From Isoetes taiwanensis (Eukaryota; Streptophyta; Lycopodiopsida; Isoetales; Isoetaceae): a stretch of DNA of 64,000 bases. Of this stretch, positions 12,913 through 53,541 are shown in pieces. The stretch covers positions 610,894 through 674,893 of the forward strand of contig JAJEKV010000013.1 in NCBI GenBank assembly GCA_021234155.1, read 5' to 3'. Below the pieces are notes generated by a model. It did not search any database. It was not told the DNA's origin and was given only the letters and a program-made list of their open reading frames with translations. Within the stretch, counting starts at the first letter, position 1, and every line of letters begins with the position of its first letter. Position numbers and translations under genes: made by a program.

Positions 12913-15900
12913 CTGCACAAATGTGAATAACTGCTTCACAAGTATGAACAGATGATAAGATACAGCTATATCGTGGGTTGAACACAAACCTGTGGTGTAT
13001 ACTTCAGTTTATGCTTCATGCGGTCCGTCCATTCAGAAGACATATCTGACCATGGACCATTCCATTCCACTTCATTTGCCCATGGATTGCAAATCTGGAC
13101 TAGTTTGTGGCCATCCACCTCCCTAGCCTAGGCGCAGAAACGTAAGCATAGTAAGTTTTATGCAGAGAAACCTAAGAATATAAAAGGGTGCTAAAATTTT
13201 ATACCTGAAGCAGAGAATAAGCATGTCCCTGGACAATTCCACTATCGGAGACATGCGTATCAGAACCTGAAGGGCTTCCTGCCCCTAGTAGAAATCCTTC
13301 TTGCATAAAAGCGTAATAGCTGAGACCAAAAGTCTCCCACTGGCAAGATCTAACTGTGCTTGAGCACTTGTCAAATCAATTTCCTCCCCTGCTCCACCAG
13401 TCAAATCCACTAAAGCATCTTGAACATGGCCACCTTCTAATGCTTCATAGGATCCATGTAATTTAGCATATGCTTTCTCCAATATTGAAACCCACAACTC
13501 ATTCTGCTTCCTGCTTGTTGCAAATGCAGGCTTGCCACGTGATTCACATGGTATCCAATCATCGACAACAACAGGCACCCACTCCCCCTGTATTATAGGG
13601 ACATTTTTTGGAAAGAATTAGCCTAAAATTACAAGTATGATAAATGTGTGTAGAAGAAAAAACACACCTGAATACAGAACCGCACAGTATAGATACCCTC
13701 GTGGTTATACTCTGGAGTAATTATAATGTCAGATATGCGTGATGCAGATGTCAATACAGCTACAGCACTCAAGAACCAGCAATCCCCAAGATGACCCTAC
13801 ATATAAAGAATCAGTCCAAATATGCAGAAATGTTATCTTGAGAAAGTTAGAATTGAGGGCAAATTTCAAACCTGACAGACATCTGCAGGCTTTGTAATGC
13901 CCTCAAAAAGACGAGGCCGTACATTTGCATCCTTGACAAGTTCATCTGGGCGTAACCACTCGCTGACAACCTATATTGGACATGAAAAAGATGTCAACAG
14001 AAAGGCTAAATTTGGATGCATAAACAAAAGACCAGTCTAACCAGACAACATTAACCTGCAGCTTAGGCAATGGGTGTTCAGGATCTATGAACAGGGACTG
14101 ATTATTTGGAGGAAATTCTTGATCTGTGAAGTGTGCCTCCCCCCTTGCAAATAGATCTGCTTTTACCGCAAGCTCAACTGCATTCTCTGGTTCAACTCAG
14201 CTTGAGTTTCAATATGGGGCTTCCTTAGTTTCCGAGCTACATAATCCATCTCAATGACTACGGTGTCACGGTCTGATTTTCGTTTCCGTCCAATTACATT
14301 CAGGTCTTCCCAGAAAGGCTCTTCGCGATCATAAAAGTCTAAATCTGCAGCTTCACTGCCCCAGTCATTTATCTACAAAAAACAGTATAAAGATTAACAT
14401 AGGTAACCCAAAGTTGCCAAACAAATTGCTTATATTAAGGAAATTTTAAAATTACTCTGGGAGAATCTGCAGATTGCCAATGGTCATCGGGCTCCTCTTC
14501 TAGACTACATTCTGGCATGTTAGTGCTATTATGAACTGTCATTATTTCGTCCTCTGTTAGGCACCTTCCCCAAACAAATACATCCATGATCTGCATGCTA
14601 CACTCTACTCCTTCACTATCAGAACGCCCAAAAGCATCTAAGTCCATTGGAGGACGTGTCCCCACCCACATTTCTGTTCCTTCCTGCCAAATACCGTCAT
14701 CTGCTGAAAACTGTAGCCCACTTTGTGTGCCATCCCAAAATGCCATCAAGATATGCAGCAGCTTCTCCTGCTTCTGCATCAATTGTCACTGTGACAGTAT
14801 GCCACCTGTTTCACAGAACATTAGGCAAACAGATATGTTATATTGGAAAAGCCTAAATCAAGAGCAAGTAAGAACAGAAAGTCATGTCCCACAAAGGGAA
14901 GAAAAAAAGACACAAGCATATCTTACTAACCTTCCATCAGCAACATTACTGCCCCAAAAGACGTTTCTGTTAAAGTCGTTTGATCAGCACCCTTCGAACT
15001 AACTTCAATCCAATCTGTCCTGATTCTAAATTCTGGTCTGCACCCGTCACTAGAATTTCTAGAACCGCATGTTGCCTAGACTCTGTGCCAAGGATGCAAA
15101 CTGGCCCAGAGAGTGGCTGGATCATGATTGCAGCAGAGCATGTAATAGACTTGCTCCCACAAACAAGGTTATCAATGGCACCACATGGCCTTCCTACAGT
15201 CCGGGGGCTCATCATCAATAACACAAACTGTTCCTTGCACTCCAACCTGTATACCAAAGGCATTGACAATTTAGGAAGAAAATTTCATAATGAGTAAGTA
15301 GTTTATGTGTCCTGATATTTGATGCACTCCTATAAAATACATCTACAATAAACAAAGACCATTTGTACCTGTTGAGCACATCGAGCTCTTTGAGCTGCTA
15401 AAATACGGCGAGCAATACTAGATGCTCGCCCACTGCCATCATCAAAGATATCTCCTCCACCTACTGCTCGAACAGCTGCTGCCATCGCAGCAGCCTCTTT
15501 AGTACCAGCGTCTGGGACTGATGAAATGACAGATGCCTCAATCTCTCTCCTTTTCTTTTCCTCCTTTTCCAACAAGGCCTTCCTCCTCTCCTTTCCTTTG
15601 CCTTCCTCTTCACGTCTCTGAAGCATAATTTCTTCCTCGATTTCCCTTTCTCGCATATAGCTAGAAGAGGACAAACACAAGAAAAAGAATATTAACAGGC
15701 ACTTTTTTAGTAAATTCAGGTTATGTCTGTTACCTCTCTTGCACCAACTCAAACTGTTTACGATCTTCTGGTGTCCATTGATCTATCTTTTTAGCGCTTA
15801 AATCTGAAAGCCCAATGCTATCCAAAAATAACCGAAGCCGAACTTCATCCTTCAGACAAGTCATTTATCAGGACATTGTCCCATGAAGTAATAAAAATTC

Positions 15901-30408: not shown

Positions 30409-30978
30409 ACAAAAACCATTAACATCCAACATATAAAAATTAAATCCCCCAACACATAACAACCAACACATAACTACCATTGACATTAATTAACACAACC
30501 ATTGGGTCCAACACATTTAAATTAAAATCCCCCTTAAACCCCCTTTGGTTTGGGTGCATATTCACACGGGGGGTGACGTAGGGCAGCGAGAGCTCTCATA
30601 ATTATATTTTGCACGTACGAAATCAACACCATATAGTATTCCGCTTGAAATCTTATAGTATTTTGCGAATCTTGTTACACAGTATAGCAAATTTTGTACT
30701 TGCATACCCCACAAACGAGGAACTTTATGTACGGTGTAAACTAAGGAATAAGGGGTGAATATGCCTATCCAACAGCTCTCGTTGCCCGGAGTCACCCCTC
30801 GTGTGAATATGCACCCAAACTAAATGGGGTTTAAGGGGGGTTTTAATTTAAATGTGTTGGACCCAATGGTTGTGTTAATTAATGTCAATGGTAGTTATGT
30901 GTTGGTTGTTAATATCAATGGTTGTTATGTGTTGGGGGATTTAATTTTTATATGTTGGATGTTAATAGTTTTTGTTGG
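30409..30978. mobile_element. Foldback element with about 170-bp inverted arms
   Basis: Arms 30409-30577 and 30791-30978 are reverse complements over most of their length (for example TTTGGTTTGGGTGCATATTC against GAATATGCACCCAAAC). They enclose about 210 bases. Extra direct copies of the arm lie at 30190-30345, each starting with GTGACGTCCCTAAGGCCCCG. Homopolymer C/G runs mark the junctions. No coding capacity; a non-autonomous foldback or MITE family. Confidence 0.65.
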
Positions 30979-31382
30979 ATGTTCATTAGAATATTACTAA
31001 ACACGTGCATAGATCATACTATGGCTATGTTGCCCATACAACTTACCTATGTTGACGTAGCGTGCTACTAATCAATCTTAATAACTATGAAGCATCTCAG
31101 ATTATCCGCCCCCCTCCCTCCCCACAAAACTAAGGAATAAAACATCCCATACCGCTCATACTTTGCATCCATTAACTATGATGCTCTTGATAAAATACAA
31201 TGCATTTTTTAGTTATGCATTTGGGCTAGCAGTGCTCCATTCCATAGCCACATTCAAGCCCAAATACTTCCTATAGCTCTCTCTTCCAGCTTCTCTTGAT
31301 CTCCAAGGTTCCAACATTTAGTTAATCTCTAACAATGGTTAGCTAAGGTTTTGAATATTTCAATTAAAAACCCACTTTCCAT

Positions 31383-32028
31383 ACGGTGCCTTTTTTGGCT
31401 CCCGAAAACGGGGTCTCGCGTGGACCCAAAATCGCTTAAGCGATTTTCAAGGGGAAAGTGAAAATCGCTTAAGCGATTTTCACAGTTGCCGGAAAATTAA
31501 GCGATTTTCACGATTCTTGAAAAATACGATCATCGGCAACGACCACGTAAAGGGTGGCTCTAGAAAAGCAGCGGCCGCGGCATGTTTTCAAATCGATTTT
31601 CCAAATTGGAGCGTTTCCAAGCCAAATCGACCATGCCCAATCCAATTTCGGCTCTTCTTAAGCAATTTCGGCCTGTTTTCCTTTGAATCCGAGCCCAGTC
31701 TGATAGCTCCAAAATCGGTGTAAAAGTCTCTGATTCTATGATTCCTAGGCAAATCGATCCTCCTCAGTCCTTAATCGGCCCTCTAGCAATACAAATCGAC
31801 TCTTTCTTTGCATACCGAGTCCGGTTTTGCTCACATCATCCCTGTTTTCCAATGTTTTTGCAGATTTTCAGAGAATCCAGTACTGTAAATATGACTTGTG
31901 GTTTCCGGCAGGGGCTTTTCAGGCTTGAATCAGGCTTGAAAATCGCTTAAGCGATTTTCATCCCCAAAATCGCTTAAGCGATTTTCGGGCGCCGAAGACC
32001 CCGATTTCGGGAGCCAAAAAAGACCCCG
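31383..32028. mobile_element. Terminal-inverted-repeat element with four perfect 20-bp palindromes
   Basis: The element is flanked by an 8-bp direct repeat CTTTCCAT (31375-31382 and 32029-32036). The sister LTR at about 36670 has the uninterrupted site with one CTTTCCAT. Its ends are imperfect inverted repeats containing TTTTTTGGCTCCCGAAA. Inside are four copies of AAAATCGCTTAAGCGATTTT (31428, 31461, 31939, 31966) and one partial copy (about 31493). An 8-bp duplication suggests a hAT-type non-autonomous element. No transposase is encoded. Confidence 0.8.
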
Positions 32029-33691
32029 CTTTCCATAGGTAAGGAATTTATTAGTGCATCCAATGCGGGAACTCCAAATCCTGCACTCCTGACTTAAAAA
32101 TCCACAAGACCTCATGATCGCAACTGCTTAAACCACCTTCCAGATGACTCCAGGCCTAGGCCCCATACTCAGGAGCCCCATTATAATACTCATTAGTTTT
32201 AAAATTATTATTATTATTCCATTTTACGAAGCTCAATTATTCGCAACAAAGCAAAATCTTAAGGGAAATTATTATCGCATTCGACGCTAAACCTCTACCA
32301 AGATCTAGTTACAATGTGCATGACTGTACGACATTTCCATAATTATTTTAACTATTCCATATTTCTTTATGTCTTTGTTTAGGTTTATTACTTACTCATC
32401 AAGATGTTAACCAAGAATAGAACGAGACCAACAAAAAGACACAGACTAAGAATAGACAAGACAAAGAACACAAAAGCACAAAAGGAAAACTCTGATTGAA
32501 GCTTCAATTCCCCTTTTCTGCCTCCCTATGAGACAATCGACTGCTCCAAGGCCAAATGGGTCCTTCTAGATATATTTCGGTCTGGGTGCTGATTCTGCCC
32601 CTTCAATGCTCTTTTTGACGAATTTAATACCTACCATTCTTCTTATTCATGCAGCTTCTGGCCAAATCGACACTTTCCTATCCCAAATCAGCTCTTTCTT
32701 TGCAATTTCGACCTATTCCTGTATGATCTGAATCTATTTTCATTTAGTCTAAACAACTCTGAAAGCTTTTGAATCGATGCAGAAACTCTATCTCGATCCC
32801 TGATTCATCCAAATTGACACTTTATGTTATAAATCCAACAATCTCCTAGCAGTTCCAGGGTGATTCATGCTTGCCCACTTGAAATTCAGATCTGATATAT
32901 TAGCCTTCACAAATTGATAATGCAAGGTTTGCCTCAGATAAATCCAATATAGTTTCCAAAATAACTACTCTTAGAATCCTTTTCAAAATCCCTCCCAATC
33001 ACAAATAACCATATTAATCTCTAATTAACGTGATCACGCCTTAAGCCACAATACTTCAATGATCAACGCCCTTGGCCAAGAGATGAAAGAATCTAATCCT
33101 GCCAGCATGTGCAATCAATTGAAACTAAACCCCACCTGAAAGAAGAAAATCAGATGTCGTGTTTTCAAGCTCTTGCTTCCATGGGTGCCTCCTCTGGTCT
33201 CCTCCTCAACACCACACAACTCCAAAAACCCTCTCGTACAAAATTGGTCACGTTCACAGAAGCCCTCTTTTAAAAAATCTCCCCCCCCCCCTTTTTTTTT
33301 GAAAAACCATTTGCTTAAATAGATATATACCATACATATATCCTTAGTATCAATTAAATGTATTATGTACAAACATGTACAAATACTGGCCTCCAACGGG
33401 CTGGGACCGTTACAATCTCCCCTTCTAAAATTTAACCCATGTCCTCATGGGTCGATCTTAGGAACTATTATGCTTACTGATAAAATGCGCTAACAATTGG
33501 AAGCAAGATACACAACTGCTACTAGAAATAAGACAAGCAAATCCATCATACATCTTACCGGAAACTTGCACTATACCAGCTTCTTGAACACCATCACGTG
33601 GACCTTCTGCTGCATACACAAACGTTTGGTGTTGTGGGCAATCCATTATTGCGGCAGCTCTAGCCTTACCACTTTGCTGCCTTCGCTCAAT

Positions 33692-33927
33692 GGTCTGGGC
33701 ATTTACTCTAGTGGTAACACACTAGATCTAGCAACTATAGGTCTCGAGTTCGAGACCGTCCAGAATCGCACTCTGAACTGTTGGGTGTCAAAACCCACAG
33801 ACGCAATGTAAAGTGGTTGGGGGCAGGCCCAACCAAGCAATGTAGTGTGGTGTGTGGTCACATGTCCAATTGGATGCTGCCTAGTGGCGTGACGTTAAAA
33901 TACTATCTATCTATCTATCTATCTATC
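33692..33927 (+). mobile_element. tRNA-derived SINE
   Basis: The head has pol III promoter-like boxes: an A-box-like segment TCTAGTGGTAACACAC near 33707-33722 and a B-box-like stem-loop GGTCTCGAGTTCGAGACC at 33741-33758, which is a T-arm shape. A body without coding capacity follows and ends in a (TATC)n tail at 33904-33927. It sits in the gag-encoding interior of the long-LTR element, in the opposite orientation. Confidence 0.6.
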
Positions 33928-33999
33928 CTCCATATCCCATTTTTCCTCAGGTTAACGCTCCCTTTGCTTCCATCGAGGTTCTCCATGGCTTTTGCCTCT

Positions 34000-34975
34000 A
34001 CCAACATTTGGATATCGGTTGGATCATTCTGCTCCCATGCCACGTCTATATTGAGGAGCTACATCCCTCCATACTGGCAAATACTAGGCAATTATTTATT
34101 GTTTGCCCCATTCCCCTACAACGGAAACAATGCTCCTCTTCAAAGCAACGCTGCCTTTCCTCGTCACTGAGCCGTGGGGGGTAACTTGCTACCTCCAGTT
34201 TGAGTGTTACTTGCCCAATTCCTCATGTTATTAGAACGTCCACATATTGGCTAGCAGATGGCTCCCCTCTAAATGATCATCTTCGGCTACTAAGCTGGCC
34301 AAGAGAAAGGTGTCTGTCTCTTTCTTTAAATGTCTAACGCAACTTTCTCTACCAAATTTGTTTCTCAACGTTTGACAATCTGAACAACTTCCTCGCGATC
34401 TTTATAGGCCACTCCTGACATCGTACTCTTGATAACTACATAAAGGCTTTTCACAAATTTGGAACATGACTTGATTTTATCCATAGTAGGACAATGAGGC
34501 TGCAATCTTCTAAATTTCTCATTGTATTCCGACACTGTGCCAGTTTGTACACAATCAAAGAACTCGTTCATCTTCTCAACCTTGTATCCTGGAGGGGTGA
34601 AATGGCCCTCATAGACTATCTTAAAATCAGCCCATGTAGCTGGTACGGGAGTCTTCCCCAAATCAATCAAGCATGTCTCCCATCAAACTCTTGTAAAGCC
34701 GCCTGAGCAAGGAGAGCCTTCACAAAATCCTGCGCTTTGATCAAATCAAAATAGAACTCCACCCCACGGAGCCAGGCATCAGCATCATCTCGTGTTGTGT
34801 TCTTCCCTATGAACACTTCTCTTTTGGTATCCTTTAACACCTCCTCAATTGCTTTCTCATCCTTACTCTTTTGTTGTGATGCACTTTGCTGCAGAGATTG
34901 CTGGATAGCTTGCAGGATACTAGTTACATCTTGAACTCCATCTCTCCCTACACTGCTAGCACCACCAGCATCCAT
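34000..34975 (-). pseudogene. gag of the long-LTR element
   Basis: The minus-strand frame 34667-34975 begins MDAGGASSVGRDGVQ and contains DDADAWLRGVEFYF. The overlapping frame 34365-34670 contains PATWADFKIVYEGHFTPPGY, the usual retrotransposon-gag core. Near 34088-34130 a zinc-knuckle-like CFRCRGMGQTINNC has Gln where the His should be. The frame changes once near 34668. No protease, RT or integrase follows, so the element depended on another for movement. Confidence 0.75.
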
Positions 34976-37472
34976 GATCTCCTAATACTCTGCACATAGA
35001 CAATAAGAGCAATAACAAATTACTTCAAGAGTACAAATGATTCTCAAACTCCCTCTAAGATCCAACATTGCTCTGATACCAACTGTGACGAGCCTGCCGA
35101 GTTCCCTCTTGGACAACTCGAGATCTTGTCTAACTTAAGACTAGAACTAATGGGTCCTAGCTTGACAAAAGCTATAATATTGGTGAAGAATTTCCATTGG
35201 AAATGATCTATTTTTAGTCATCAAAGACAACAAAAATCCAAAAGATTTAATATCCATAATATTCTCAATATATACATCATAACAACTGGTCAACAGACAA
35301 GAGCTTTTAGCTCTGGAACTCGGCCCCAATACACGGCTACATTTCTGCCATCAACTTGACCATTGCCTTTCGGATTCATTGCATATGCATTCAAATGGGT
35401 TAGTCCTCGTGACTAAGTGGGGATCCCTGGCTGCCATTGCGTGCATGAAAATACTATGGAATCTTGGATACAAAGACATACGCACAAGCAGACAAAATAT
35501 TTGAAGTGGTCTAACCATGGCAAATCCAAAAAAAAAAAAAAGCAAACCACAACATAGCCCTAGAGTAGAATTGCGATTTGTTGAATTATGGCAAACATTA
35601 GAGCTTTAGTTCCATAAATCAATTTAAAAGTGATGCAAGGATATTTTAATAATTTTGAAGCTTGAAATCTATGCAAGCTTTTTTCTTTGCCCCACATTCC
35701 AGGAAGTGGAGCTTAATTGGGCAGAAGTGCACCTTTAATCGACTTGAATGGTATTTCGACTGGTCGTTTGACAAAATGCCAAGATATTTTTCGCTTCCAC
35801 TAAAGGGAAAAAGCTTAGTGCATGGTCTCTCCTTTGTTGTTTTAAAAGAAATATCAAATATGAGCATCAAAGACAGAGAAACATAGTCAAAGTACTAAAA
35901 CATCAGAAAATAGCTCCGAGACAATGGGAAGGTCAGCCAGCCTACATTGAGATCCTGTTAGCAGACAAATGCCCAGTCATCTCACATTCTGAGCCTCGTT
36001 GGTGGGGTGAACCTCGTATGTGTATACCTTTCCCAGCCCACGTCTGGCACTGGAGGATCTCTTACCATGGAGTCACAGAGGTGACGTAGTATCCTGATCA
36101 GAGAAACTATGCTCGGTATCATAGAGCACAAGAATACCTCAAAGAATCATAGATGAACATGAACATGCCGAAGCAACCCTAGGCCACGGAACCTAGATGC
36201 CCGACCCTAGAGGATCTGAGACATAACAAAATACCAAGACAACAGTAGGACAATGCAAACACCATAACATGTGATGTTCATTAGAATATTTACTAAACAC
36301 GTGCCTAGATCATATTATGGCCGATATTGCCCATACAACTTACCCATGTTGATATAGTGTGTTACTAATCAATCTCCCATAATAACTACGAAGCATCCCA
36401 GACTATCCATCCCCTTTCCCCCCATAATAAGGAATAAAACGTTCCATACCGTTCATATTTTGCGTCCATTAACTATGATGCTCTTGATAAAATACAATGC
36501 ATTTTTTCAGTTATGTATTTAGGCTAGCAGTGCTCCATGCCATAGCTACATTCAAGCCCAAATACTTCCTATAACTCTGTCTCCCAGCTTCTCTTGATCT
36601 CCAAGGTTCCACCATTTAGTTAATCTCTAACAGTTGTTAGCTAACATTTTGAATATTTCAATTAAAAACCCACTTTCCATAGATAAGGAATTTATTAGTG
36701 CATCCAATGCGGAAACCCCAAATCCCTCATGATCGCGGCTGCTTAAACCACCTGCCAGATGACTCCATGCCTAAGCCCCATTATAATACTTATTAGTAAA
36801 AAATTATTAAACTTAAATGTTATTATTCCATTTTACGAAGCTCAATTATTCGCAACAAAGCAAAATCTTAAGGGAAATTATTATGGCGTTCCACGCTAGA
36901 CCCCTGTCAAGATCTAAATATATTGTGCATGATTTTGTGGCATTTCCATAATTATTTTAACTATTCCATGTTTCTTTATATCATTGTTTGGGTTTATTAC
37001 TTACTCATCAAGATAACCAAGAATATAACAAGACCAACAAAATGACACAAACTAAGAATAGACAAGATAACGAACACAAAAGCACAAAAGGAAAACTCTG
37101 ATTGAAGCTTCGATTCCCCTTTTCTGCCTTCCTATCAGACAATCGACTGCTCCAAGGCCAAATGGACCCTTCGAGATAGATTCTGGTTTGACCCATCATG
37201 ATTTGGGTGTTAACTCTGCCCCTTCAATCCTCTTTTTGACGAACCTTTTGCAGATTCAAATACCTACCATTATTCCTATTCACGCAGCTTCTGAAATCGA
37301 CACTCTTCTACCCCAGTTCGGCTCTTTCCTTGCAATTTCAACCCATTCCGATCTGATCTGAATCTATTTTCATTTAATCTAAACAACTCTGAAAGCTTTT
37401 GAATCGATGCAGAAACTCTATCCCGGTCCCTAATTCATCCAAAGTGACACTCTATGCTATAAATCCAACAAT

Positions 37473-40917: not shown

Positions 40918-42050
40918 ACAATTTCGATTTCTGCAATAAGCTAGATCAATTTTGTGTATTGCATGTAAACTTAGATTAACCAATCAATTATCACAATGTA
41001 TCACAAGTCACTATATGATAATAGATTTGGCACCAAATAAACATTACATCCAATAACCATTGAGTTTACTGTAGCAAATGTCACTGTAGCTCGAGTATTG
41101 ACCGAGTTACTGTAGCTAGGTTGACCCGATGAGATACAACCAATGCAGCTCAATTCGAATACCAAGTTCCTCCTTGATTTTATTTCTAGCCAACTCATTG
41201 AAGAGTCGACCTTCTTGGATTTAAATACCCTGTGCTTCGACGGTCTAGGCATCGGATTTGGTCGACTTGCCAAAATCCTATTCAAAAGGATTTTGCCTCC
41301 TATAGTTCGGGCCAGCTCAAACAATAAAATAGTATTAGGTTAAAAATTATCCATTGAACCTATGAATAACCTATGAACCCTTTATAATATCTTGGGGTTC
41401 CATGTTCTAAACATGTCTTATGCACAATTATATGTACAGTATATGTATAGAATGGCTGAGATAAGAATTATGTGATGATCTAATTCTGTAATTCTGAGAT
41501 TCCTCCTTCAGTACATAATTCTGTAACCTTCGTGTCAAACTTGAACTGTTTGAACTTGTTTTCTGCTAAGGATTTTGTGAAAATATCTACTATCTGTTTT
41601 GCTATGTTGACATACACCATTTGAATATATTGTTTCGCAGTCAAGTCTATGATAAAATGGATGTTCAGTTCAACATGTTTCGTCCTCTCATGATGCACAT
41701 GATTTTTCATAATGGCTATAAAACTTTGGCTGTTTGTTAAAATCTGTGTTGGCCTTGTTTGCTTGCATTCTAGATTCTCCAACAATCTTCTCAACCATGT
41801 TATCTCCTTAGCTACCAGAGATGATGCTGCATACTCCACCTCAACTGAGGACATTGCAATGGCCTTTTGTTTTTTGCTTTTTCAAGTAATTCCTCCTCCA
41901 CCTAAAAATATAACATATCATGATGTATTTTCTGAATCCCCTCCCCAGTCTGCATCACTGTATGTACACTCTAGTCGTATGCGATACCCATGGGACGCGA
42001 CCCCTAGACCCCAATATATTGCACATGTCTATAACATGTGAATATATACG
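40918..42050 (-). mobile_element. Copia element 3' part: RNase H and 3' LTR (minus strand)
   Basis: The frame 41480-41854 reads SSVEVEYAASSLVAKEITWL and then HHERTKHVELNIHFI, the Copia RNase H core. A continuation upstream to about 42000 includes SDADWGGDSE after a frame change. The probable 3' LTR is 40918-41491 (plus-strand start TGTTAGAAATAG). A 200-bp piece of the same LTR recurs at 49083-49289 in the same orientation. This element interrupts the 5' copy of the long LTR. Confidence 0.7.
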
Positions 42051-42780
42051 CTAACTGCCACATGGCACAACCCCATGGCATGACCTTTCCTTGTCTACCC
42101 TAAAAGAGTGTACCCTAAAAGGTACCCCTTAAAGGGGGAGGAGCTCTAAAGCGCCCACCCTTTGGGAGCATCGAGATTAGAGCCAGCAGTTGCCTTCAGT
42201 GCTAGCATCAAGATTCGAGCATGTTGCAGTCACCTTCAGCACCTGATCTTAGAGAACGACCTGCTGCAGTTGGCCTAACTTCGAGCTAGCAACCTCAGCG
42301 AGCCCCCCCTCGGTCACCTTTAGCTTGACAGGAGCAATCATGGATGCCTTCAGAGGAATGCCAGCTAGCCAGGGATCTGGTAGGTGCCACCCAAGTTTTA
42401 TTCATAGAATGTATAGACCAGCCCATTGCTCATTCTTGGCCTTATCCTATCTGTGCCAAGAACTGGCCGATGAACCCTAACCATGTATGTTTAGGATAGA
42501 TTCTTATGATATTATGTTACTTTGGTTCATTGTTATCTTTGATGGATGATCTGTTCGCACTCTTGTGTATTGGGAAGGGGGGTAGAAACCCAGACCTTGT
42601 AGAATGATGATTCTAATTAGCCTCATTTAAATCCCAATTAAATGCGGCATGTGCATAAGAGCCCGCCTATGCTGTGTGTGGAGGAGCTAGACCGGCTGAC
42701 AAGGAGGGCTTGTCCGATGGCAATTGATTTCTCTGGTGTGTAAGGCCCACCGGGAAACATTGTGGGCTAGGCCTAATACC
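42050..42780. other. Unassigned stretch between Copia RNase H and element X
   Basis: Contains a run of short repeated phrases based on GCAGT(T/C)RCCTTCAG and CTAGCA (42180-42300), and no recognisable protein. It may be the true start of the element X LTR or part of an older insert. Confidence 0.35.
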
Positions 42781-44512
42781 TTGGCACTGCGTGTAGCCAA
42801 GGTATGGGCTCGACACCTCTTGGGTGGTGAGGCCACCTTCAATGGGGTTGAAGTCGTAGATGAGTAGTGGCTCTCTAGTCCGCCTGCCATTGGCATGCAC
42901 CCTCTGGAGGAGAGTGATCTCCTTCTACCTCATCGGGACTGGGGAGATGCAACCCAAGAGTAGCCCCTTTGGCTATGCCCCCGGCAGGCTATGGTCTGGC
43001 TCCAAGACCTATCAGCCTATCTGCAAAGTATGCACAAGAGGGGCGGATGGAGTGGACTACCCAACGACCATATTCTATGCCAGCCAATTCCATTGTCATG
43101 AATTTTGTTCTGTCTGTATTGATGTCTGGAGATCCCTGGCCGTCACTCATATGACTAAGGTACAAGGTGTGAGTTGAGCTTCAAACACCCAATATGCTAT
43201 TTTTATACATTTTTAGGGCGACTATATTAGTCACAAGGGTCGGTGAAAGTGATGAAATTGGTGGTGTCCTGCAATCTTTGTTGCATTTTGTACCTGTTCT
43301 CGTGTTCCTCTAGGATCTGCTTCAAAGCTTTGGCTGTGTTATTTGCTGTGGCTACCTATCTTGTTGCCTCCCCCACTAAAATCCTCAAAGTTACTCTTTC
43401 CCATTGCATTCTTATCGTTTCATATGCCGAACATCTGTTCCATACATGTTCTTCATCTTCAACCTCTCGCAGATCACAAAGCTGGCATAACCTGTCCTCT
43501 CTTCACTATCATGCGTTGCCATCTTTCCCGCTCAATCAATAATTTATGATCACCCATTCTGAATCTGCATAGTGTGATTCTATGCCTTTGACTGGTTGCT
43601 ATCTGTGTATATGCCTTGTCCGATACTGCTCTCAGGGTTCATCATTTCTAAGTACATTCCCAGCTTTACATCTAGTTGCTTTTATATCTATGCCTTAAGT
43701 AACCTTTTTCTGCAGGTTCCCTTTTCACCATTTCGCAACTTATTTTTCACTTCCCACCAGAGAGCACATCCCAGAAAGCGAACTTCACAAGAAGCACATA
43801 CGCTCCATATACGGATTTCCATTCTAAGTCTGAGATTTCTGTCCTAATCTATTTATAGGCTGGGCATCTACTCTATACGTGCCCTTCTTCTATTTCCCCA
43901 AAATCACGTAATTTGCAGGTCTTGTGTTCCCTTTCTTAAAACTGACAATACTTTTCAAAACTGACATTTTTCAGAAGCTAACAAGCCTGCCCCAGTTTTT
44001 TTGCCCCTTCTATCTTTCCATTATCCTTCATTTGTACAATCTTTTTCTAACCTTGACAATTGTATTTATCCTTGAGTTTTTAAGACTATAGAACTAAAGA
44101 TTGGTAACTTGTAACTGACATCTCTCATCTGACCTTTGATTCAAGTCCTACTTCTTGTCTTGTAACCCATATTTATATTCATTTTGCCTTTTTCTGCAGA
44201 GAATCTTTATTTTATTCAGAGCTAACAAGCTTGCCCCATTTTTTCTGGCCCTTTCTATCTTTTCATTTTCCCTTATAGTATCATCTTTTTTGTGACTCTG
44301 AACAAATATGCATTCATTCGCATCTTTTTACATCATTCTGCCCATTGCTACCCCACTCCTTCTATTTATGCCTGAACTTACCATGCTGGATCCTTGCTCA
44401 ACATCAAGGATACGACGTCAGGTGGACGGCCTCGTGTTGGCAGCCAGGCTAACATGAGGGAACTCCTGTTTATATACAATAGGAGCATCGTATACAAGCA
44501 GGGGACGTCACA
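42780..44512 (+). repeat. 5' LTR copy of element X (with insert)
   Basis: Homologous to 48401-49086 in its outer parts (42780-43160 and 44386-44512). The middle (about 43170-44385) is C/T-rich sequence with no match in the other copy and no recognisable gene. Confidence 0.55.
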
Positions 44513-44685
44513 ATGGAATTAGAGCGATGATCTTGATTGACTAAGATCGAGCACTGGCCAATTACCTGATAGTACTAATTTTCTAGAGAAATCCCAGTCT
44601 TGGCAAAACAAATCCAAGCAAGAACCATGTTTTTGGGAAAAAAAAAGTTCCCACCCGTTAGGAAAATCAATGAGCCAGTGCCCAA

Positions 44686-44753
44686 CGACTCTCAGCTAGC
44701 GCGAATGGTATTTGTGAGATTCTCACAAGCCCATTTCGTGCATGGTGAGAGTC
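44686..44753 (+). repeat. Hairpin repeat A
   Basis: An outer stem GACTCTCA/TGAGAGTC encloses a second partly paired segment (GCGAATGG with CCATTTCGT) and an apical stem TTGTGAG/CTCACAA with triloop ATT. About 200 bases downstream lies the TATA box of the H3-like gene. Two more copies are at 46112 and 46315. Confidence 0.75.
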
Positions 44754-44960
44754 ACCCACCTATTGTAGGTTATAAGCATCTAGAAATATTAAGTGGATAG
44801 TCAAAGATAGCCTAAAATAATTAATTAAGCTTGATTGTGCACTTAAACATAATAATTGATAACATGTAGAGTAATTTGGACTGTATCATCCTTTTTCCTT
44901 GGTTTTCCTAAGTCATATGGCATAATATATGGCCAAAACAAGTAAGTTTATAATTTAACC

Positions 44961-44968
44961 TATAAATA
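44961..44968 (+). promoter_or_regulatory. TATA box of the H3-like gene
   Basis: TATAAATA, 112 bases before the MARTKQTAR start codon. The leader contains TCGCGCTCCTG and AAAGGCGATCTT. A similar arrangement recurs at 46532 before a second ORF. Confidence 0.6.
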
Positions 44969-45072
44969 CTGGGATCCACGACTCTCAATTCATGGGAAAC
45001 CCAGTAACAATCGCGCTCCTGATCAGAAAGGCGATCTTGAGGCGCCCCTAACCGATTGACAAACTGCTCGAC

Positions 45073-45991
45073 ATGGCACGTACCAAGCAAACAGCTAGGA
45101 TCAAGGAACTAGAACCTGATGACGACGCTCAAGTCCAAACCCACCGACAGAGGAGGAGAGAGAGAAGGAGAGAAAGAAGGACTAAGGCAACCCAATATCA
45201 GCAACTAGTGACAGAAACCCCTTGACCCGTCGCTTTCCTGCAATCATCGGCCTCCATGGAGAGTAGCTAGGTATGCAGTTCGGCGGTAAGCGGATCAAGT
45301 GCTTTGGTGGTAAATTGGGCAAGAGGAAGAAACTCCAACCCGATGTGTCTTCTGCAGATGAGGACGACACCTATGCCCAGGAGTTAGAGCGGATTCTCAC
45401 AGGCGAGGGGACTTCTGACCCAAACAGACAAGTTTCCCAACACGCAAACGAAGAGCAACATGATCAGCAGCAGGACGAGCAGCGGGAAAAACTGGTGGAG
45501 GAGGACACAGAAGTTGTAGGAGATACAAAGAAAAGTTAAAGAAGTATGAAAAGCTCATGGCGATGCACAAAGCCTACTCGGAGTATTATGACGCACACTG
45601 AGTAAGATTTGTCGCAGCTTGCAGGCCAACAAGAGATCTAAACTCTCTTCGACCCCCACCAGATCCTCCTGTGGCACCTAAGAAACCAATAAAGCTGAAA
45701 CGGACCTCAACCTATGCAAAGTTTCTGCGGGAGATCTGCCATTTCCAGTGGAGCACCAATTTTCTGATTCCCCGCGCCACTTTTGGCATATTGGTAAAGG
45801 AAGTGGTGCAGGAATATCAGTCAGAATTCCATGCCACTTCACAAATGGTGATAGCGACCCAGGACGCAGCCGAGACCGAGTTTGTGCAAACGTTTGATGA
45901 TGCTAATATATGTGCAATGCATGCTTGCCGAGTAACCATTATGCCTAGGGACATCCGACTGGCCCATTTCATCAAAAGCCGTCGAGGATGA
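45073..45991 (+). CDS. Divergent histone H3-like protein (H3/CENH3-type), inferred three exons
   Basis: The start codon opens MARTKQTARIKELEP, which keeps the canonical H3 tip (Arg2, Thr3, Lys4, Arg8) but has Ile at position 9. A basic run of arginines follows. Inferred exons 45073-45207, 45279-45534 and 45618-45991 have introns of 71 and 83 bases with GT-AG ends and join in phase to 254 codons. Exon 2 encodes a Lys-rich then Asp/Glu/Gln-rich segment. Exon 3 ends with a histone fold that aligns to H3 residues 47-135 without gaps: FLREICHFQWSTNFLIP, the loop-1 length of canonical H3, NICAMHACRVTIMPRDIRLA, and a stop at the usual place. Changes at normally fixed sites include Lys56 to Trp, Arg63 to Pro, Lys79 to Gln, Arg83 to His and Lys115 to Cys. 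The long variable N-tail and the NFLIP segment recall CENH3, whereas loop 1 does not. If the introns are not real, one stop and a frame change would make it a pseudogene. It lies between the primer site and pol of element X. Confidence 0.7.
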
Positions 45992-46111
45992 TTTTTTTTG
46001 TATTTACTATACATGTAAAAAGTTACTTCTAATAATAAAATTATGGTTTTTCTAATGTTTGTAGACAATTTCAATGTTAAAGAGTTGGAAAAGTACAGTT
46101 CAAATCTCTGA

Positions 46112-46182
46112 CGACTCTTAGCTAGCGCTGCGAATGGCCATTGAGAGACTCTCACAAGCCCGTTTCATGCACGGTGAGAGTC
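46112..46182 (+). repeat. Hairpin repeat B
   Basis: Second copy of the nested hairpin, 120 bases after the H3-like stop codon. The outer stem GACTCTTA/TGAGAGTC keeps pairing through a G-T wobble. The apical stem TTGAGAG/CTCACAA has one mismatch and triloop ACT. Confidence 0.75.
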
Positions 46183-46314
46183 ATTACCCCTATGTCCCAA
46201 AATAATTGCCCAAGTTAGCAAATGATAAGATATAATGAGCTTCAAATTAAACGAAGAACCCAAATTTGTACTTCAAAATGTCGTTTGGATACAAATTTTA
46301 TCACCAACACTCCA

Positions 46315-46382
46315 CGACTCTCAGCTAGCGCGGATGCCACTTATGAGATCCTCATAAGCCTATTTCATGCACTGTGAGAGTC
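46315..46382 (+). repeat. Hairpin repeat C
   Basis: Third copy, in the same orientation, 150 bases before the second TATA box. The apical stem TTATGAG/CTCATAA differs from copy A by a paired G-C to A-T change, and the outer stem is intact. Confidence 0.75.
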
Positions 46383-46531
46383 GTCCACTTTTTTATACTT
46401 ACAATGTAGTTCTAATCCAAAAATACCTATTACCCATTGTGCATTCCAACATGAGTCAAACCAACTGTATTGGAAAGTCCAACAAATAGACAACATTGTC
46501 GCAACCCAAAAAATTCTGCAAGCTCCTTTCC

Positions 46532-46539
46532 TATAAATA
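46532..46539 (+). promoter_or_regulatory. Second TATA box with an H3-like-gene type leader
   Basis: TATAAATA followed by TCTCGCTCCTG and AGAGGCGATCTT, close in order and spacing to the leader at 44961-45072, then an ATG at 46654. This suggests a tandemly duplicated promoter segment. Confidence 0.5.
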
Positions 46540-46653
46540 CCACCTCATTTCTGCAAAACAACACCTTCAAATCTCGCTCCTGTCGAAGAGGCGATCTTCT
46601 CAGCTATTTAGGCACTCACCTTCGTATTCAACACAGTCTTTTTCATCACCTCC

Positions 46654-47040
46654 ATGGCAACCTCTACTTTCACTTCCTGGTACAATGCCACTAGTCATGT
46701 CAAGGAAGTACCACTTGATCAGGTATACCAAATGTTCCAGCACTCATTCGACCTCCAAGCTACACTCCATGCCACACCATATTACCACAATATTATGGCA
46801 GAGTTTCATGCTAGGGTATATGTCCATGCTAAACAAGTCCCACCATGTGTGGTTGCCGATGCCCTTTCAAGGCATCCCCTCACCACAAGAGTCCATTGTA
46901 ATGCCATATTAACACTCACCAGTGAGTTTGGCAAGAAGATTGAGGAGACCGTGCAGACAAATAAAGACATCCAAGAAGTATGGGCAAGCCTCTCTAAGGA
47001 GGCAAGAATAGATAAGGAGAGAGACCTTCAAGAACTATAA
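46654..47040 (+). CDS. ORF joining an unknown N-terminus to Gypsy RNase H end and linker
   Basis: A 128-codon open frame. The first 60 or so residues (starting MATSTFTSWYNATSH) match nothing I recognise. From about residue 66 (VVADALSRHPLTTRV) the sequence is the end of Gypsy RNase H and the linker before integrase. The ATG stands 115 bases after the second TATA box. Either the second promoter unit was fused to retrotransposon sequence, or the N-terminal part is simply degraded RNase H read from a chance ATG. Confidence 0.4.
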   Translation: MATSTFTSWYNATSHVKEVPLDQVYQMFQHSFDLQATLHATPYYHNIMAEFHARVYVHAKQVPPCVVADALSRHPLTTRVHCNAILTLTSEFGKKIEETVQTNKDIQEVWASLSKEARIDKERDLQEL

Positions 47041-48345
47041 GAAAGAGGGTAAACTCCTATATCATAAGGATAAGTCATGCGTACCTAAGTCATCGTGAGT
47101 CAGGAAGTTGATACTCCATGACATGCATAACAACCCAATTGCCGGCCACATAGGTTTATGAAGACATATTTCAAAATCAGAAGTAGCTATTATTGGTCAG
47201 GCATGAAGAAGCAAATTGCAAGGTACATTCGAGAGTGCCAGATATGTCAGCAGACGAAAGCAGAGCAACTTCGAATTTTCGGAGTCTTGCAACCGTTACC
47301 AGTTCCAAATGCCAAATGAGAAGTGGTGAGCATGGACTTCATAACAGGGCTGCCAAGAACACAACGAGGGCATGATGCCTTAATGGTAGTAGTGGACAAA
47401 TTGTCCAAAATGGCTCACTTTGTGCCATGTAAAACTACCGATACAGCTTTGGATATGGCAGTGCATTTCGTTAAGAATATTTTCAGACTCCATTGAATGC
47501 CAAGAGAGATCATCTTCGATAGGGACCCGAAATTCATGAGTGCCTTTTGGCAAGACTTGTTCACCATGATCGACACCAAGCTCTCCATGAGTTCGGCATA
47601 TCATCCCCAAATGGATGGCCAGACAGAGTGCACTAATCACATCATGGAAAATATGTTGAGGACATATGTGTGGAATAAGCAGTCAAAATGGAGTGACTAT
47701 CTCCACGCGGTTGAATTTGCTTACAACAGTACCAAACAGGAATCATCACAGATGTTCACGATCAATTATGGCTATCAGTGCCTCACATTGGATACTTGGC
47801 ACAATCCAGTGTCAAGAGTAGAAGTGTCTCAACGGATGTTGGCAGATATGCAAGAGTTGGTTGATGAGGTACGAGAATATCTTTTGCCCTCAAGAAGCTG
47901 TCAGAAGGCGTTAGCAGATAAGCACAGATCCGTAAGGGAGTTCCAAGTAAATGACAACGTTTGGCTTAAGATAAAAGTCAAACAAGCAAAGCTCCATATC
48001 GGCACATGCAAGAAGCTTGCTTCAAGATGGGTTGGACCCTTCAAAATAATAAAAAAAGTAGGAGACCAAGCCTGCAAATTGCAATTGCCAACTCATCTCA
48101 AAACCCATAACGCTTTCTACGTAAGTCTCCTCAAAAAGCATACTCCAAATCCGGAGGAGGTATTGGATACTCCAACCTTGTTAGAATTAACCGACGGACA
48201 ACTTATGATTCTTCTGGAAGTTCTTCTTCAGAGAGCATATAAGAAGACAAGAAGATCTAAGTTCCTACAATACCTCGTCAAGTGGACGCACATATCCTTT
48301 GAAAGACACTACGTGGGTACTCCAAACAGATCTTGAGAAGTAGTA
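47041..48345 (+). pseudogene. Chromovirus integrase and chromodomain
   Basis: After a stop at 47040 the zinc-binding HHCC part is readable with frame changes (DMHNNPIAGHIG, then ECQICQQTKAEQ near 47240). The catalytic core follows: [20 protein letters not shown] (first Asp), IIFDRDPKFMSAFWQDL (second Asp) and DGQTECTNHIMENMLRTY (Glu). An in-frame stop lies near 47496, and the frame 47497-48336 is then open to the end. The final segment has the chromodomain pattern QYLVKW followed, after a one-base shift, by a Trp-containing helix. This places the element among Gypsy chromoviruses. Confidence 0.8.
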
Positions 48346-48400
48346 CCTACAATTTTGAAAGAATGCAAAGGACGTCTCGTCACCGTGTTAAACAACACTG

Positions 48401-49086
48401 ACCTAGCACTGCGTGTGACCAAGGTATGGGCTCGACGCCTCTTGGGTGGTGAGGCCACCATCAATGGGGTTGAAGTCATAGAGGAGCAGTGGCTCCCTAG
48501 TCCGCCTGCCATTGGCATGCACCCTCTGGAGGAGAGTGGTCTCCTCCTGCCTCATCGGGACTGGGGAGATGCAACCCAAGAGTAGCCCCTTGGCTATGCC
48601 CCCGACAGGCTACGGTCCGGCTCCAAGACTTATCAGCCTATCTACAAAGTATGCACAGGAGGGGCGGATGGAGTGGACTACCCAACGACCATGTTCTATG
48701 CCAGCCAATTCCATTGCTATGAATTCTGTCCGCATTGATCTCTAGAGACCCCAAGCCATCAGTCATACTATGAGTCTAAGCCTTGGGTAGGATTTCCCAT
48801 TGCTGTTATGTTGTTATGTTACTTGTTCTTATGATATGGTGATTCCACCCCTAGTGGTCATTATGTATTTTGTTGATGCTATGTGCTTATGTTCATGTGC
48901 TTCCGCAGCTAGATACATCCCGAGGGAGACGGGATGAATGACACGTCCATCCCTCCCACGCTGGATCCTTGCTCAGCATCAAGGATCCGCCGTCAGGTGG
49001 ATGACCACGTGTTGGCAGGCAGGCTAGCAGGAGGGAAACTCCTGTTTATATATGATGGGAGCATCGTATACGAGCAGGGGACATCA
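48401..49086 (+). repeat. 3' LTR copy of element X
   Basis: Aligns with 42780-43160 and 44386-44510. Near its end GGATCCTTG and CAAGGATCC (48963-48988) form an inverted repeat around 8 bases. The last bases GGGGACATCA match the GGGGACGTCA that precedes the primer site of the 5' copy. Confidence 0.6.
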
Positions 49087-49289
49087 TAACCTCCTAAAGT
49101 TCGGGCCAGCTCAAACAATATAAATAGTATTAGGTTCATAAATAACCATTGAACCTATGAATAACCTATGAACCCTTTATAATATCTTTGAGTTACATGT
49201 TATAAACATGTCTTATGCACAATTATATGAACAATATATGTATAGAATAGCTGAGGTAAGAATTATGTGATGATCTAATTCTGTAATTC
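49083..49289 (-). repeat. Copia LTR fragment
   Basis: It matches 41296-41491 almost base for base (GTTCGGGCCAGCTCAAACAA ... GATCTAATTCTGTAATTC). It is probably the truncated 5' LTR of the minus-strand Copia element. Immediately beyond it, at 49290, the interrupted long LTR resumes. Confidence 0.75.
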
Positions 49290-49828
49290 AAATAAGAAGA
49301 ACATCGGATGCCGTCTCTTCGAGCTCTTGCCTCCACAACTTGGATGCAACCCTCCTCTGGGTGCCTTCTTTGGTCTCCTCCTCGGCACTACAAAGCTCCA
49401 AAAACCCTCTCTTACAAAATTTGTCATGTTCCCAAAAGCCCTCTTTCAGAAACTCCCCCTTTTATTTTTTTGAAAAAACACTTTGCTTAAATAGATATAT
49501 ATGCCATGCATATATCCTTACTATCAATTAAATGTATTATGTACAAATATGTACAAATACTGGCCTCCAACGGGCGTGTCCAAAACCAAGTTAGGACCTA
49601 CCGTCATGACTTGGTCTTGGACACCATGGGATAGTGCGGTTTATGTGTTGTGATACTCGAGGACGAGCATAGTTCTAGTGGGAGAGATTGTAGCAGATCC
49701 ATGGGAGACCACTCGAGTGGATCTTGGTGTCGCGTTCCCGAGACAGTGGCATAAATGGGTAGAAGTGACTACTCATAAACATCTAGACGGTTTTGCCTAG
49801 TTGGTTAAGGGCATGTCAGTGAGGAACG

Positions 49829-51385: not shown

Positions 51386-51693
51386 TTACTTCTGGTTTTG
51401 GAGCAGTTGTGAATTTTCGAGAGCTCACTGGGACGAAAACTTTGTATGTTTTCTCTAAAGCTGGATATCCGGCTTGAAAGATCAAGATGGAGCTCGTCTT
51501 GCAAAGCAAAAAGCTTTTTGGAATTGTGACTGGGAATAACCTTCCTCCAGTGCAACATGTTGACGCAACTACCGGTAATCTTGTTCAGAATGCTACTGAA
51601 TACGATGCTTGAGTTAAGAATGTAGATGACAGGAACGAAAAAGATCAAACAGCTCGAGCACTGATTCTCTATGCTCTTAAAGAATCCATTTTA

Positions 51694-52270
51694 ATGGATG
51701 CCAGAGATTTTGTTACTTCTAGTGAAGTATGGAAGTATTTAGAAAAAACTTATATGAAGAAGACTATGCATGAAGTGATTAGTCTTCGCAAGGATCTTAC
51801 AACATTGCAGTATCGTTTGAATGATTCGTTTGACGAACATGTGGATAAATTTAAAGCGCTTCTAGAAGCACTGTCTGCAGCTAGTGCTAGTATTCCGCAT
51901 GATCAACATGTTGTTCATTTTCTGGAATCCATGCTGGAAGAGCTTCAGACTCTTACGATAGTTCTCGCCAATAAAAAATCTATGACTGTAGATCGGGCTT
52001 GTGAATCTCTAAAAGATGGAGTACGAAAATTACAAAGACAATCTATGCAAGAAGATCAAGCTTTAATTGTTGATAGTAGAAACGAGGTCGAGAAGATGAA
52101 AAGGCTCTTGTTACTGATACTAGGCGTAGTCGTGGTCGTGGTCGTGGTTGCAGCCGAGGCCGTGGTGGTGGTGGTAATTAGCAATTGGCTAGACTTGAGC
52201 AATCTAAATCAGAGATTGTCTGTACTTATTGTAAAAAGCTGAATCATGTAGAAAGCGGGTGTTATTTGTG
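51694..52270 (+). CDS. Copia gag with zinc knuckle (partly broken)
   Basis: The open frame 51694-52242 has the UBN2-type gag order: SSEVWKYLEKTYMKKTMHEV, then LRKDLTTLQYRLNDSFDEHV and PHDQHVVHFLESM. Upstream, frame-broken sequence from about 51370 (RELTGTKTLYVFS, KMELVLQSKKLFG) is the gag start. The zinc knuckle CTYCKKLNHVESGC lies just after a frame change near 52210. The valine-rich C-terminus (residues about 145-165) is an out-of-frame reading of an Arg-Gly repeat (CGTGGTCGTGGT), a common gag tail. Confidence 0.75.
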
Positions 52271-52390
52271 AATGAGCATAAAACGTTACTTTAGGCAATT
52301 CGAGATGGACCTCCTATCTGTGATGAACATGCTAGTGTTGCATGTGATGAAGCTTTTGAAGCCGCTTTCTCTACAGGAACTGTTGTTTCC

Positions 52391-52909
52391 ATGACTGTTG
52401 ATTCAGGTGCCACACAACATATGACATTCCATAAGCATTGGTTAAAGAATTATCGCCCACTTTTAGTTCAAAAGCTTGTATTTCTTGGTGATAACACAAG
52501 TCATGAGGTCAAAGGCATTGGAGATCTTCATATTGATACTCCTAATAAAATACAAGTCTTGCGTGCTATTTTACATGTTCCTGGTTTGCGCCGCAATCTT
52601 GTTTCGGTCTCTAGACTTGCAGATCTTGGCTTAATCATTCAGTTTGATAGATAGTGGTGTAAATTTATCCAAGATGGATGTGTACTTGGAGTTTCCCCGC
52701 GAGAAGGTCATCTCTACGAGTTTAGGTTGACCGATGATTTTGTGAATCTTATGACTGTCAGTGGGGATGAATCGAGCACATTGTGGCATCGTCATTTTGC
52801 ACATGTGAACTTCCAATATTTATTGGACATGGCCTCTAATAGAATCGTGGATGGTCTATATGTGAGGCACGTGCTGTTGGAAAGCAACATCTCTATCCTT
52901 TCAATGTGA
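52391..52909 (+). CDS. Copia protease and pre-integrase segment
   Basis: MTVDSGATQHMT carries the DSGA active-site motif of Copia proteases, followed by RNLVSVSRLADLG. After a stop near 52652 the pre-integrase block LWHRHFAHVNFQYL is readable to about 52860. Both are usual parts of a Copia polyprotein. The stop shows that the element is not coding-competent. Confidence 0.75.
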
Positions 52910-53541
52910 AAGGCAAACGTGCAACACAACTTTTGGAGCTTGTGCATGCTAATGTATGTGGCCCACTACCTTATGCTTTGAGTGGTGCACGATATTTCAT
53001 TTTATTTGTGGATGATTTTTCCCGTAGAGCTTTTGTGTATTTCATCTCTGCAAAGTCCCAAGTCTTCACCAAATTCCAAGTGTTTAAAAGTATGGTGGAG
53101 ACTCAGACTGACAAAGTGATTCAGAGATTACGTACTGATAATGGTGGAGAATTTACTTCTGCTCAATTCAAGTGTTTTTGTGAAGAGCATGGTATAGCTC
53201 GTGAGCATACCATTCCTTATTCCCCTCAGCAAAATGGTGTTGCTGAGCGTAAGAATCATACGATAATCAGTGATGTTCGATGTATGCTTACTCATGCTGG
53301 TTTGGATAAGTCATTTTGGGCAGAAGCTATGGCTACTGCTGTTTATGTACAAAATCGAACGATAAACTCTTCCCTAAAAGGCGTAACTCCTTTGCAATTA
53401 TGGTCAGGAGTAAAACCAAATGTTCAAAATTTGCGAGTTTTTGGTTGTTTAGCCTATGTTCATATTTCAAAAGAGAAGAGAAAGAAGCTTGATCCAGTCG
53501 GCCTCAAAGCCATCTTTATAGGCTATGCAGTCGAGGCATAG
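52906..53541 (+). CDS. Copia integrase core
   Basis: 211 codons with the full D-D-E set: LFVDDFSRRAFVYF (first Asp), RTDNGGEFTSAQF (second Asp) and NGVAERKNHTI (Glu). GCLAYVHISKEKRKKLDP and FIGYAVEA follow, as in Copia integrases. A stop follows at 53539. The frame then continues as GYQLYDLATQRVITSRD up to the inversion junction near 53616. Confidence 0.85.
   Translation: MKGKRATQLLELVHANVCGPLPYALSGARYFILFVDDFSRRAFVYFISAKSQVFTKFQVFKSMVETQTDKVIQRLRTDNGGEFTSAQFKCFCEEHGIAREHTIPYSPQQNGVAERKNHTIISDVRCMLTHAGLDKSFWAEAMATAVYVQNRTINSSLKGVTPLQLWSGVKPNVQNLRVFGCLAYVHISKEKRKKLDPVGLKAIFIGYAVEA

Follow-up and report, generated by a model that had tools for sequence, protein, structure and literature searches.

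A histone H3-like reading frame between the primer-binding site and gag of a decayed Ty3/gypsy chromovirus in Isoetes taiwanensis

Results

Architecture of the host element

The window analyzed in this study, a stretch of 64,000 nucleotides from Isoetes taiwanensis, contains an odd histone ORF that sits inside a decayed Ty3/gypsy chromovirus, between the LTR with its primer-binding site (PBS) and the start of gag. The element lies on the plus strand, reads LTR-PBS-H3 ORF-gag start-pol remainder-LTR, and was compared with two other copies (C5 and C800, see below). The 5′ LTR (42015-44513) has lost its left end and the 3′ LTR (48406-49089) its 5′ part. Both were recognized from two pairs of direct repeats on either side of the histone fold, one at 42784-43151 and 48406-48767 (90.5%) and one at 44381-44513 and 48956-49089 (87%), and from comparison with C5, whose LTR matches 42015-42109 and 42476-43108. 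The 5′ LTR has about 1 kb of sequence that is absent from the 3′ LTR, and this extra part, at 43152-44380, has an 81-nt imperfect repeat (43967-44046 and 44212-44290). Directly 3′ of the LTR, a PBS-like sequence TGGAATTAGAGC was found by eye at 44514-44525. Its counterparts are TGGTATCATAGC in C5 and TGGTATCGAGAGC in C800, and by eye these sequences resemble a tRNA-Met-type PBS.

The H3-like ORF is preceded by a TATA-box-like site CCTATAAATAC at 44959-44969 and followed by a possible poly(A) signal, AATAAA, noted by eye at 46034-46039. A second TATA-box-like site (46530-46540) stands ahead of gag, and a motif at 45015-45038, after the first TATA-like site, is common to the gag leader, with an overall alignment barely above shuffled sequences. 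The ORF at 46654-46848, which begins MATSTFTSWYNATSH, is identified as the N-terminal part of gag because it is homologous to the C5 ORF that opens MATSSFRRWYSTTAH (2.4e-10). This copy lacks the remainder of gag as well as the pol sequence that precedes the end of RNase H. Decayed pol sequence then runs from the RNase H end through integrase and the chromodomain (46850-48385, chromodomain at 48157-48330). It is 71% identical to C5 pol at the DNA level over 1554 nt and matches SH3_Tf2-1 (6.4e-18), with a Chromo match below the cut-off (0.023), and it is interrupted by stops and frame changes.

Hairpins of about 75 nt bracket the H3 ORF in both the window and C5. The three window copies lie at 44685-44759 (-37.3 kcal/mol, z -6.8), 46111-46183 (z -1.9, with 8 of 200 shuffles as stable) and 46314-46388 (z -4.6), and the C5 sequences at 7950-8025 and 8137-8212 of sampled stretch L004 and at 6960-7032 and 7170-7242 of L014. 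Copies inside one element are 78-89% alike; between window and C5 hairpins, blastn shows no similarity, and no hairpin of comparable strength occurs in the C800 intervals. No Rfam family matches the window at gathering score, and within 43000-49500 the only hit is FTX_2 (0.32) at 43873-43983, away from the hairpins. A hairpin-derived pattern, to which the three window copies do not all conform, was without exact matches in viral contigs, and of five pattern matches obtained there in a search for relatives none was confirmed by tblastn.

Other repeats and genes lie nearby. Copia remains occupy 41296-41881 (41480-41881 by eye), 49090-49289 and, by Pfam, 51613-53541; the piece at 49090-49289 adjoins the end of the 3′ LTR and is 93% identical to 41296-41494. 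A piece of a calpain-type protease gene, presumably plant DEK1, lies on the minus strand at 13285-15284, with Pfam Peptidase_C2 at 13285-13617.

A divergent H3 fold behind an exact H3 tip

The ATG at 45073 opens the reading MARTKQTARIKE, which carries the H3 tip MARTKQTAR, as the initial annotation had proposed. Beyond residue 8 the sequence is unlike H3 and forms a charged tail. Residue 9, Lys in H3, is Ile here, and no K27-type ARKS motif was seen by eye in the tail of the window or C5.

The sequence at 45602-45991 is an H3 fold beyond doubt. It passed the profile search that had been suggested as a check (Pfam PF00125 Histone, 1.6e-18, 67.5 bits against a gathering cut-off of 26.4), and its best match among solved structures is H3.3 (2.7e-20). 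The gap-free alignment to the H3 fold also held, with 41 of the last 87 residues identical to H3.3. So did every changed residue listed earlier (Ile9, Trp56, Pro63, His83 and Cys115): relative to H3.3 the fold carries K56W, R63P, R83H, F84A and K115C. Residues 63, 83, 84 and 56 of H3 contact DNA, and the loss of these contacts through R63P, R83H, F84A and K56W counts against a reading in which the protein acts in chromatin. An NCBIfam search gave a single weak match to an archaeal histone (0.074), a PHROGs search gave no match, and an AlphaFold2 prediction made without an alignment had a mean pLDDT of 39.5 and was set aside. In a neutral-decay simulation of the window fold alone, a weak test, 9% of runs remained free of stops and the observed similarity had a P of 0.047; the comparison of copies given below supersedes it.

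A broken reading frame, not a spliced gene

The initial annotation had joined tip and fold through two introns into a protein of 254 residues. This gene model did not survive comparison with C5. The proposed second intron (45535-45617), read in the frame of the fold, matches the corresponding position of C5 over 32 residues without a gap, and there the sequence is coding. For 45518-45613 against the C5 coding sequence the score was 85, which none of 2000 shuffles reached. Within this supposed intron lies a TGA (45599-45601), upstream of which the frame changes; the C5 sequence is interrupted by a stop eight codons ahead of the position of that TGA. The segment aligns without gaps to coding sequence and stops occur in both copies: the ORFs of the window and C5 are broken, and neither is a spliced gene. 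The proposed first intron covers a further frame change, in the linker.

Scored with an approximate splice matrix, the proposed donors are unremarkable, since 49% and 24% of the GT dinucleotides in the window do equally well or better, and the acceptors are better (15% and 6% of AG). An open frame is kept by 1104 models with one or two introns, and with that many models and a coding second intron the spliced gene was rejected. The region is better described as an ORF start with the tip and charged tail, running to a frame change or stop (45073-45222), its tip identical in protein sequence to that of C5; a charged, Gln-rich linker in another frame with a broken reading, for which Pfam gives only a weak match below cut-off (45270-45536); the end of the linker in the frame of the fold, which takes in most of the supposed second intron and closes with the TGA (45506-45601); and the fold itself with C-terminus and stop (45602-45991).

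Related copies in the same assembly

Sixteen stretches of the same assembly were sampled blind, one of 2 kb and fifteen of 10 kb (one of them half N). The LTR family of the window occurs in three of them, L004, L018 and L011, the match in L011 extending over only 70-75 nt. In the C5 copy the order is LTR-PBS-H3 ORF-gag-pol. Within L004, hairpins stand 3′ of the LTR and PBS, and beyond them an ORF opens MARTKQTARVVMED with the MARTKQTAR tip, residue 9 being Val, so that this position is Ile or Val and not Lys in the two copies. A TATA-like site CCTTTAAATAC stands at the place matching CCTATAAATAC of the window; it is weaker than the window site, and the alignment there is barely above shuffles. 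The C5 ORF has stops and one frame change, and a charged Gln-rich linker leads into the start of an H3 fold (Pfam 5e-12, 46.6 bits, cut-off 26.4). This fold is split, with the remainder 17.2 kb downstream and the C-terminal end gone. Downstream of the fold lie further hairpins, another TATA-like site, the gag start and, further on, a zinc knuckle (by eye), RT, RNase H, an integrase zinc domain, a chromodomain and the 3′ LTR. With LTRs, PBS, RT, RNase H, integrase and a C-terminal chromodomain, C5 is a Ty3/gypsy chromovirus, and no target-site duplication was evident at the ends examined. The 17.2-kb insertion that splits it (L004 9306 to L014 6525) holds other repeats itself; it opens CAGGGTAAAAATTA, closes with the inverse and has an 8-bp duplication CTTCCAAA on either side, features that mark it as hAT-like, and it is a later guest.

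A related LTR, preceded by a purine tract, lay at the end of L011, and integrase and chromodomain were found in the stretch that follows. From the spacing in C5 a 3-kb stretch of C800 was chosen, a prediction that was not recorded beforehand. This stretch contains an H3 fold (Pfam 2.3e-38, 131.6 bits, cut-off 26.4), identical to H3.3 at 81 of 99 residues. A single in-frame TAG and a break in the frame ahead of the fold interrupt the reading, and the ARTKQTAR tip is absent from the stretch read. Upstream of the H3 sequence are a PBS and a 5′ LTR that shares 86-88% identity with its 3′ counterpart. The order in the parts read, on either side of 30901-35400, is LTR-PBS-H3 fold and, further on, integrase/chromodomain and LTR. 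The 12.4-kb element is flanked by a 5-bp target-site duplication, ATAGA. Because ATAGA stands at both ends, the segment from 27987 to about 40394 is a single insertion that encloses the H3 sequence, which therefore lies within the ends of a mobile element. A different N-terminal part is seen here: an open stretch of 279 residues without a Pfam match (L023:1920-2756, minus strand) precedes the C800 fold. About 270 bases past the H3 sequence, a gag-like start (MA....WY-like, its eighth codon a stop) was recognized by eye alone; in the C800 stretch after H3, gag pieces gave no tblastn hit.

An H3 fold thus follows the PBS in all three copies read there (window, C5 and C800), a further copy, C6, being left out of the counts since it is readable at its 3′ end only. 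These copies show both the position of the ORF and its transposition together with the element. No intact copy is among the three; all are broken.

Selection and relationship to H3 and CENH3

Differences between copies were compared by codon position against a simple null, with three sequences in all. Between window and C5 they number 49, 36 and 76 at the first, second and third positions; the null mean at the third position is 53.7, and none of 3000 random placements was as high. Identical residues number 47 of 113, compared with 27.9 ± 3.5 for random placement (again 0/3000 as high). Over 67 fold codons the other two pairs point in the same direction: window and C800 gave P values of 0.010 and 0.041, and C5 and C800 gave 0/5000 and 0.0024. 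The two MARTKQTAR tips, a comparison of nine codons only, differ by five synonymous and no non-synonymous changes. The 22 codons ahead of the fold have 13, 5 and 8 differences at the first, second and third positions, with no third-position excess, which leaves selection on the linker unsupported. These patterns argue firmly for past selection on the protein. By comparison, three integrase/chromodomain pieces of window and C5 share 57-74% identity, which suggests that change is faster in the H3-like protein.

In the tree, window and C5 group together (support 82/83) and share seven residues that depart from H3. They lie with three plant CENH3 sequences on one side of a branch supported at 80/86, on which branches are long. 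Only one of eight inner branches is well supported, and the rows of window and C5 are long. C800 falls with canonical H3, though a single clade of all three copies is not rejected (p-AU 0.12); of its residues that depart from H3, C800 has one in common with only the window and two with only C5.

Lacking the near-invariant tail and fold, the window sequence is not canonical H3 (H3.1/H3.3). Nor is its loop 1 lengthened: it has H3 length, one or two residues below the plant CENH3s. The earlier statement that the fold differs both from canonical H3 and from typical plant CENH3 therefore stands within the limits of these tests. A65 and T85 of window and C5 occur in all three plant CENH3s compared, and F54 in two of them. 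In a retention test of the window fold, positions kept in human CENP-A were not favored (p 0.30), and comparison with the three plant CENH3s gave p values of 0.017, 0.002 and 0.002. Among the origins first suggested (centromeric, gametic or element-borne), the element-borne one is upheld by the three copies and the C800 target-site duplication; the centromeric or gametic one is not, the CENH3-like residues being few and the branch weak.

Discussion

Plants silence LTR elements via H3K9 methylation, and the chromodomains of LTR elements recognize histone marks. The ORF plan of the family is a charged tail or linker followed by an H3 fold, between PBS and gag, to which window and C5 add an exact ARTKQTAR tip and a TATA-like site of their own, distinct in the window and less so in C5. 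That the element encodes an H3 variant kept by selection is, in our judgment, very probable. We infer that the H3-like protein would be a separate product, made from its own promoter during element activity, which may pair with H4 and form nucleosomes on element DNA or compete there. With Ile or Val at residue 9, no ARKS motif seen by eye in the tail of either copy and the K4 tip retained, activating marks could be placed on such nucleosomes but not the K9/K27 silencing marks, which would slow host silencing. This anti-silencing role is the one we favor, though tentatively, as it could well be wrong. The more specific proposal, a lineage that packages its own DNA with a K4-bearing, K9/K27-free H3 variant to evade host heterochromatin, is doubtful. 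Taken as one statement, a chromovirus family with an H3-like ORF between PBS and gag together with anti-silencing nucleosomes falls a little short of an even chance. A tip-based mechanism cannot apply to every member of the family because C800 is without the ARTKQTAR tip in the stretch read, and any single mechanism is weakened by this absence and by the lost DNA contacts of the window fold.

Several other explanations bear on origin. There may have been two captures, an old one of an H3-type gene in the window/C5 lineage and an independent one of a near-canonical H3 in that of C800. The closeness of the C800 fold to H3.3, its grouping with canonical H3, the few shared residues and the different N-terminal part all speak for two captures, but the slot is the same, the plan of charged linker plus fold is similar by eye, and a single clade is not rejected; we regard this as a serious possibility that stops short of being probable. 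It is very unlikely that a host H3 fragment was captured by chance and is a functionless passenger. In its favor, plant LTR elements are well known to capture genes, according to the available text of a review (PMC13317346), and all copies found are broken; against it stand the third-position excess between copies and the occurrence of the ORF in one and the same slot of diverged copies. The compact, gene-like unit of TATA-like site, ATG and AATAAA would fit a two-intron H3 gene of the host, centromeric or gametic in function, with unrelated repeats next to it; this reading is largely refuted, and we consider it most improbable, by the coding nature of the second intron in C5 and by the C800 duplication that encloses the H3 sequence.

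Other functions can also be envisaged for a selected, element-encoded H3 variant. The protein might serve replication, by coating or condensing element nucleic acid in particles or by steering integration, perhaps to centromeres together with the chromodomain, in which case the CENH3-like A65, T85 and F54 of window and C5 and their branch with plant CENH3s (80/86) would reflect that role. The C5 ORF lies directly 5′ of gag in a chromodomain element, as such a role might lead one to expect; against it, loop 1 has H3 length, the CENH3 branch is not strongly supported and joins long rows, and the ORF's own TATA-like site and the stop before gag suggest a separate product and not a gag fusion. We hold this to be unlikely. 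Less likely still is a histone mimic, in which an H3 tip on a charged tail titrates enzymes and readers of the H3 tail outside nucleosomes: the tip is indeed kept across five synonymous changes with the compared remainder only 42% identical, but the fold, needless for a tail decoy, is itself selected, and C800 has no tip.

If the proposed selected, element-encoded H3 variant is confirmed, histone variants would be shown to arise and diverge within mobile elements, and an element that supplies a variant without K9 would allow arms races over histone marks to be tested directly. H3-like genes of repeat-rich plant genomes may belong to elements, and caution is advisable in their annotation.

Comparison with known systems

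In the openly licensed, top-ranked literature, we found no published report of a histone inside an LTR retrotransposon. In the available text of a screen of 121 angiosperm genomes, 15 extra domains are reported and none of the nine named is a histone (PMC9289625). The word histone is absent from the main text of a 2026 review of gene capture (PMC13317346) and appears once, for chromodomains, in the accessible part of a survey of plant LTR elements (PMC6317226). Chromodomain targeting is described in the available sections of PMC2864245. Among lycophytes, the Selaginella chromoviruses SM-Tcn1 and SM1-Galahad (PMC2864245, PMC3350952) are alike in gag-pol with a chromodomain and in 5-bp target duplications. 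As far as the available text of these papers goes, Galahad has a tRNA-Met-type PBS, no PBS was found in SM-Tcn1, which measures 5.7 kb with two ORFs, and no H3-like ORF is described for either; a figure legend in this literature (PMC2864245/PMC3350952) gives one element an "additional ORF with unknown function". Orchid Ty3/gypsy elements carry an AlkB-type m6A demethylase ORF, likewise a fixed extra domain that may counter host control, according to the portions available (PMC9289625), though there it is an RNA demethylase and here a histone.

Plant CENH3s share with our sequences a long variable tail, A65 and T85, and P63 in the window. They differ in their longer loop 1, and here the tip is an exact MARTKQTAR and the location a retrotransposon. 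A close likeness is H3L, an H3-like gene carried by a hAT transposon of Pyrenophora tritici-repentis, which, in the available text, is likewise borne by a mobile element, has N-tail insertions and fits neither H3 nor CenH3 (PMC3538342). H3L belongs to a fungal DNA transposon with 26 near-identical copies in the reference genome, whereas the present copies are old, strongly diverged members of a plant LTR chromovirus with the ORF in a slot before gag; the host element being an LTR retrotransposon, it has no hAT transposase.
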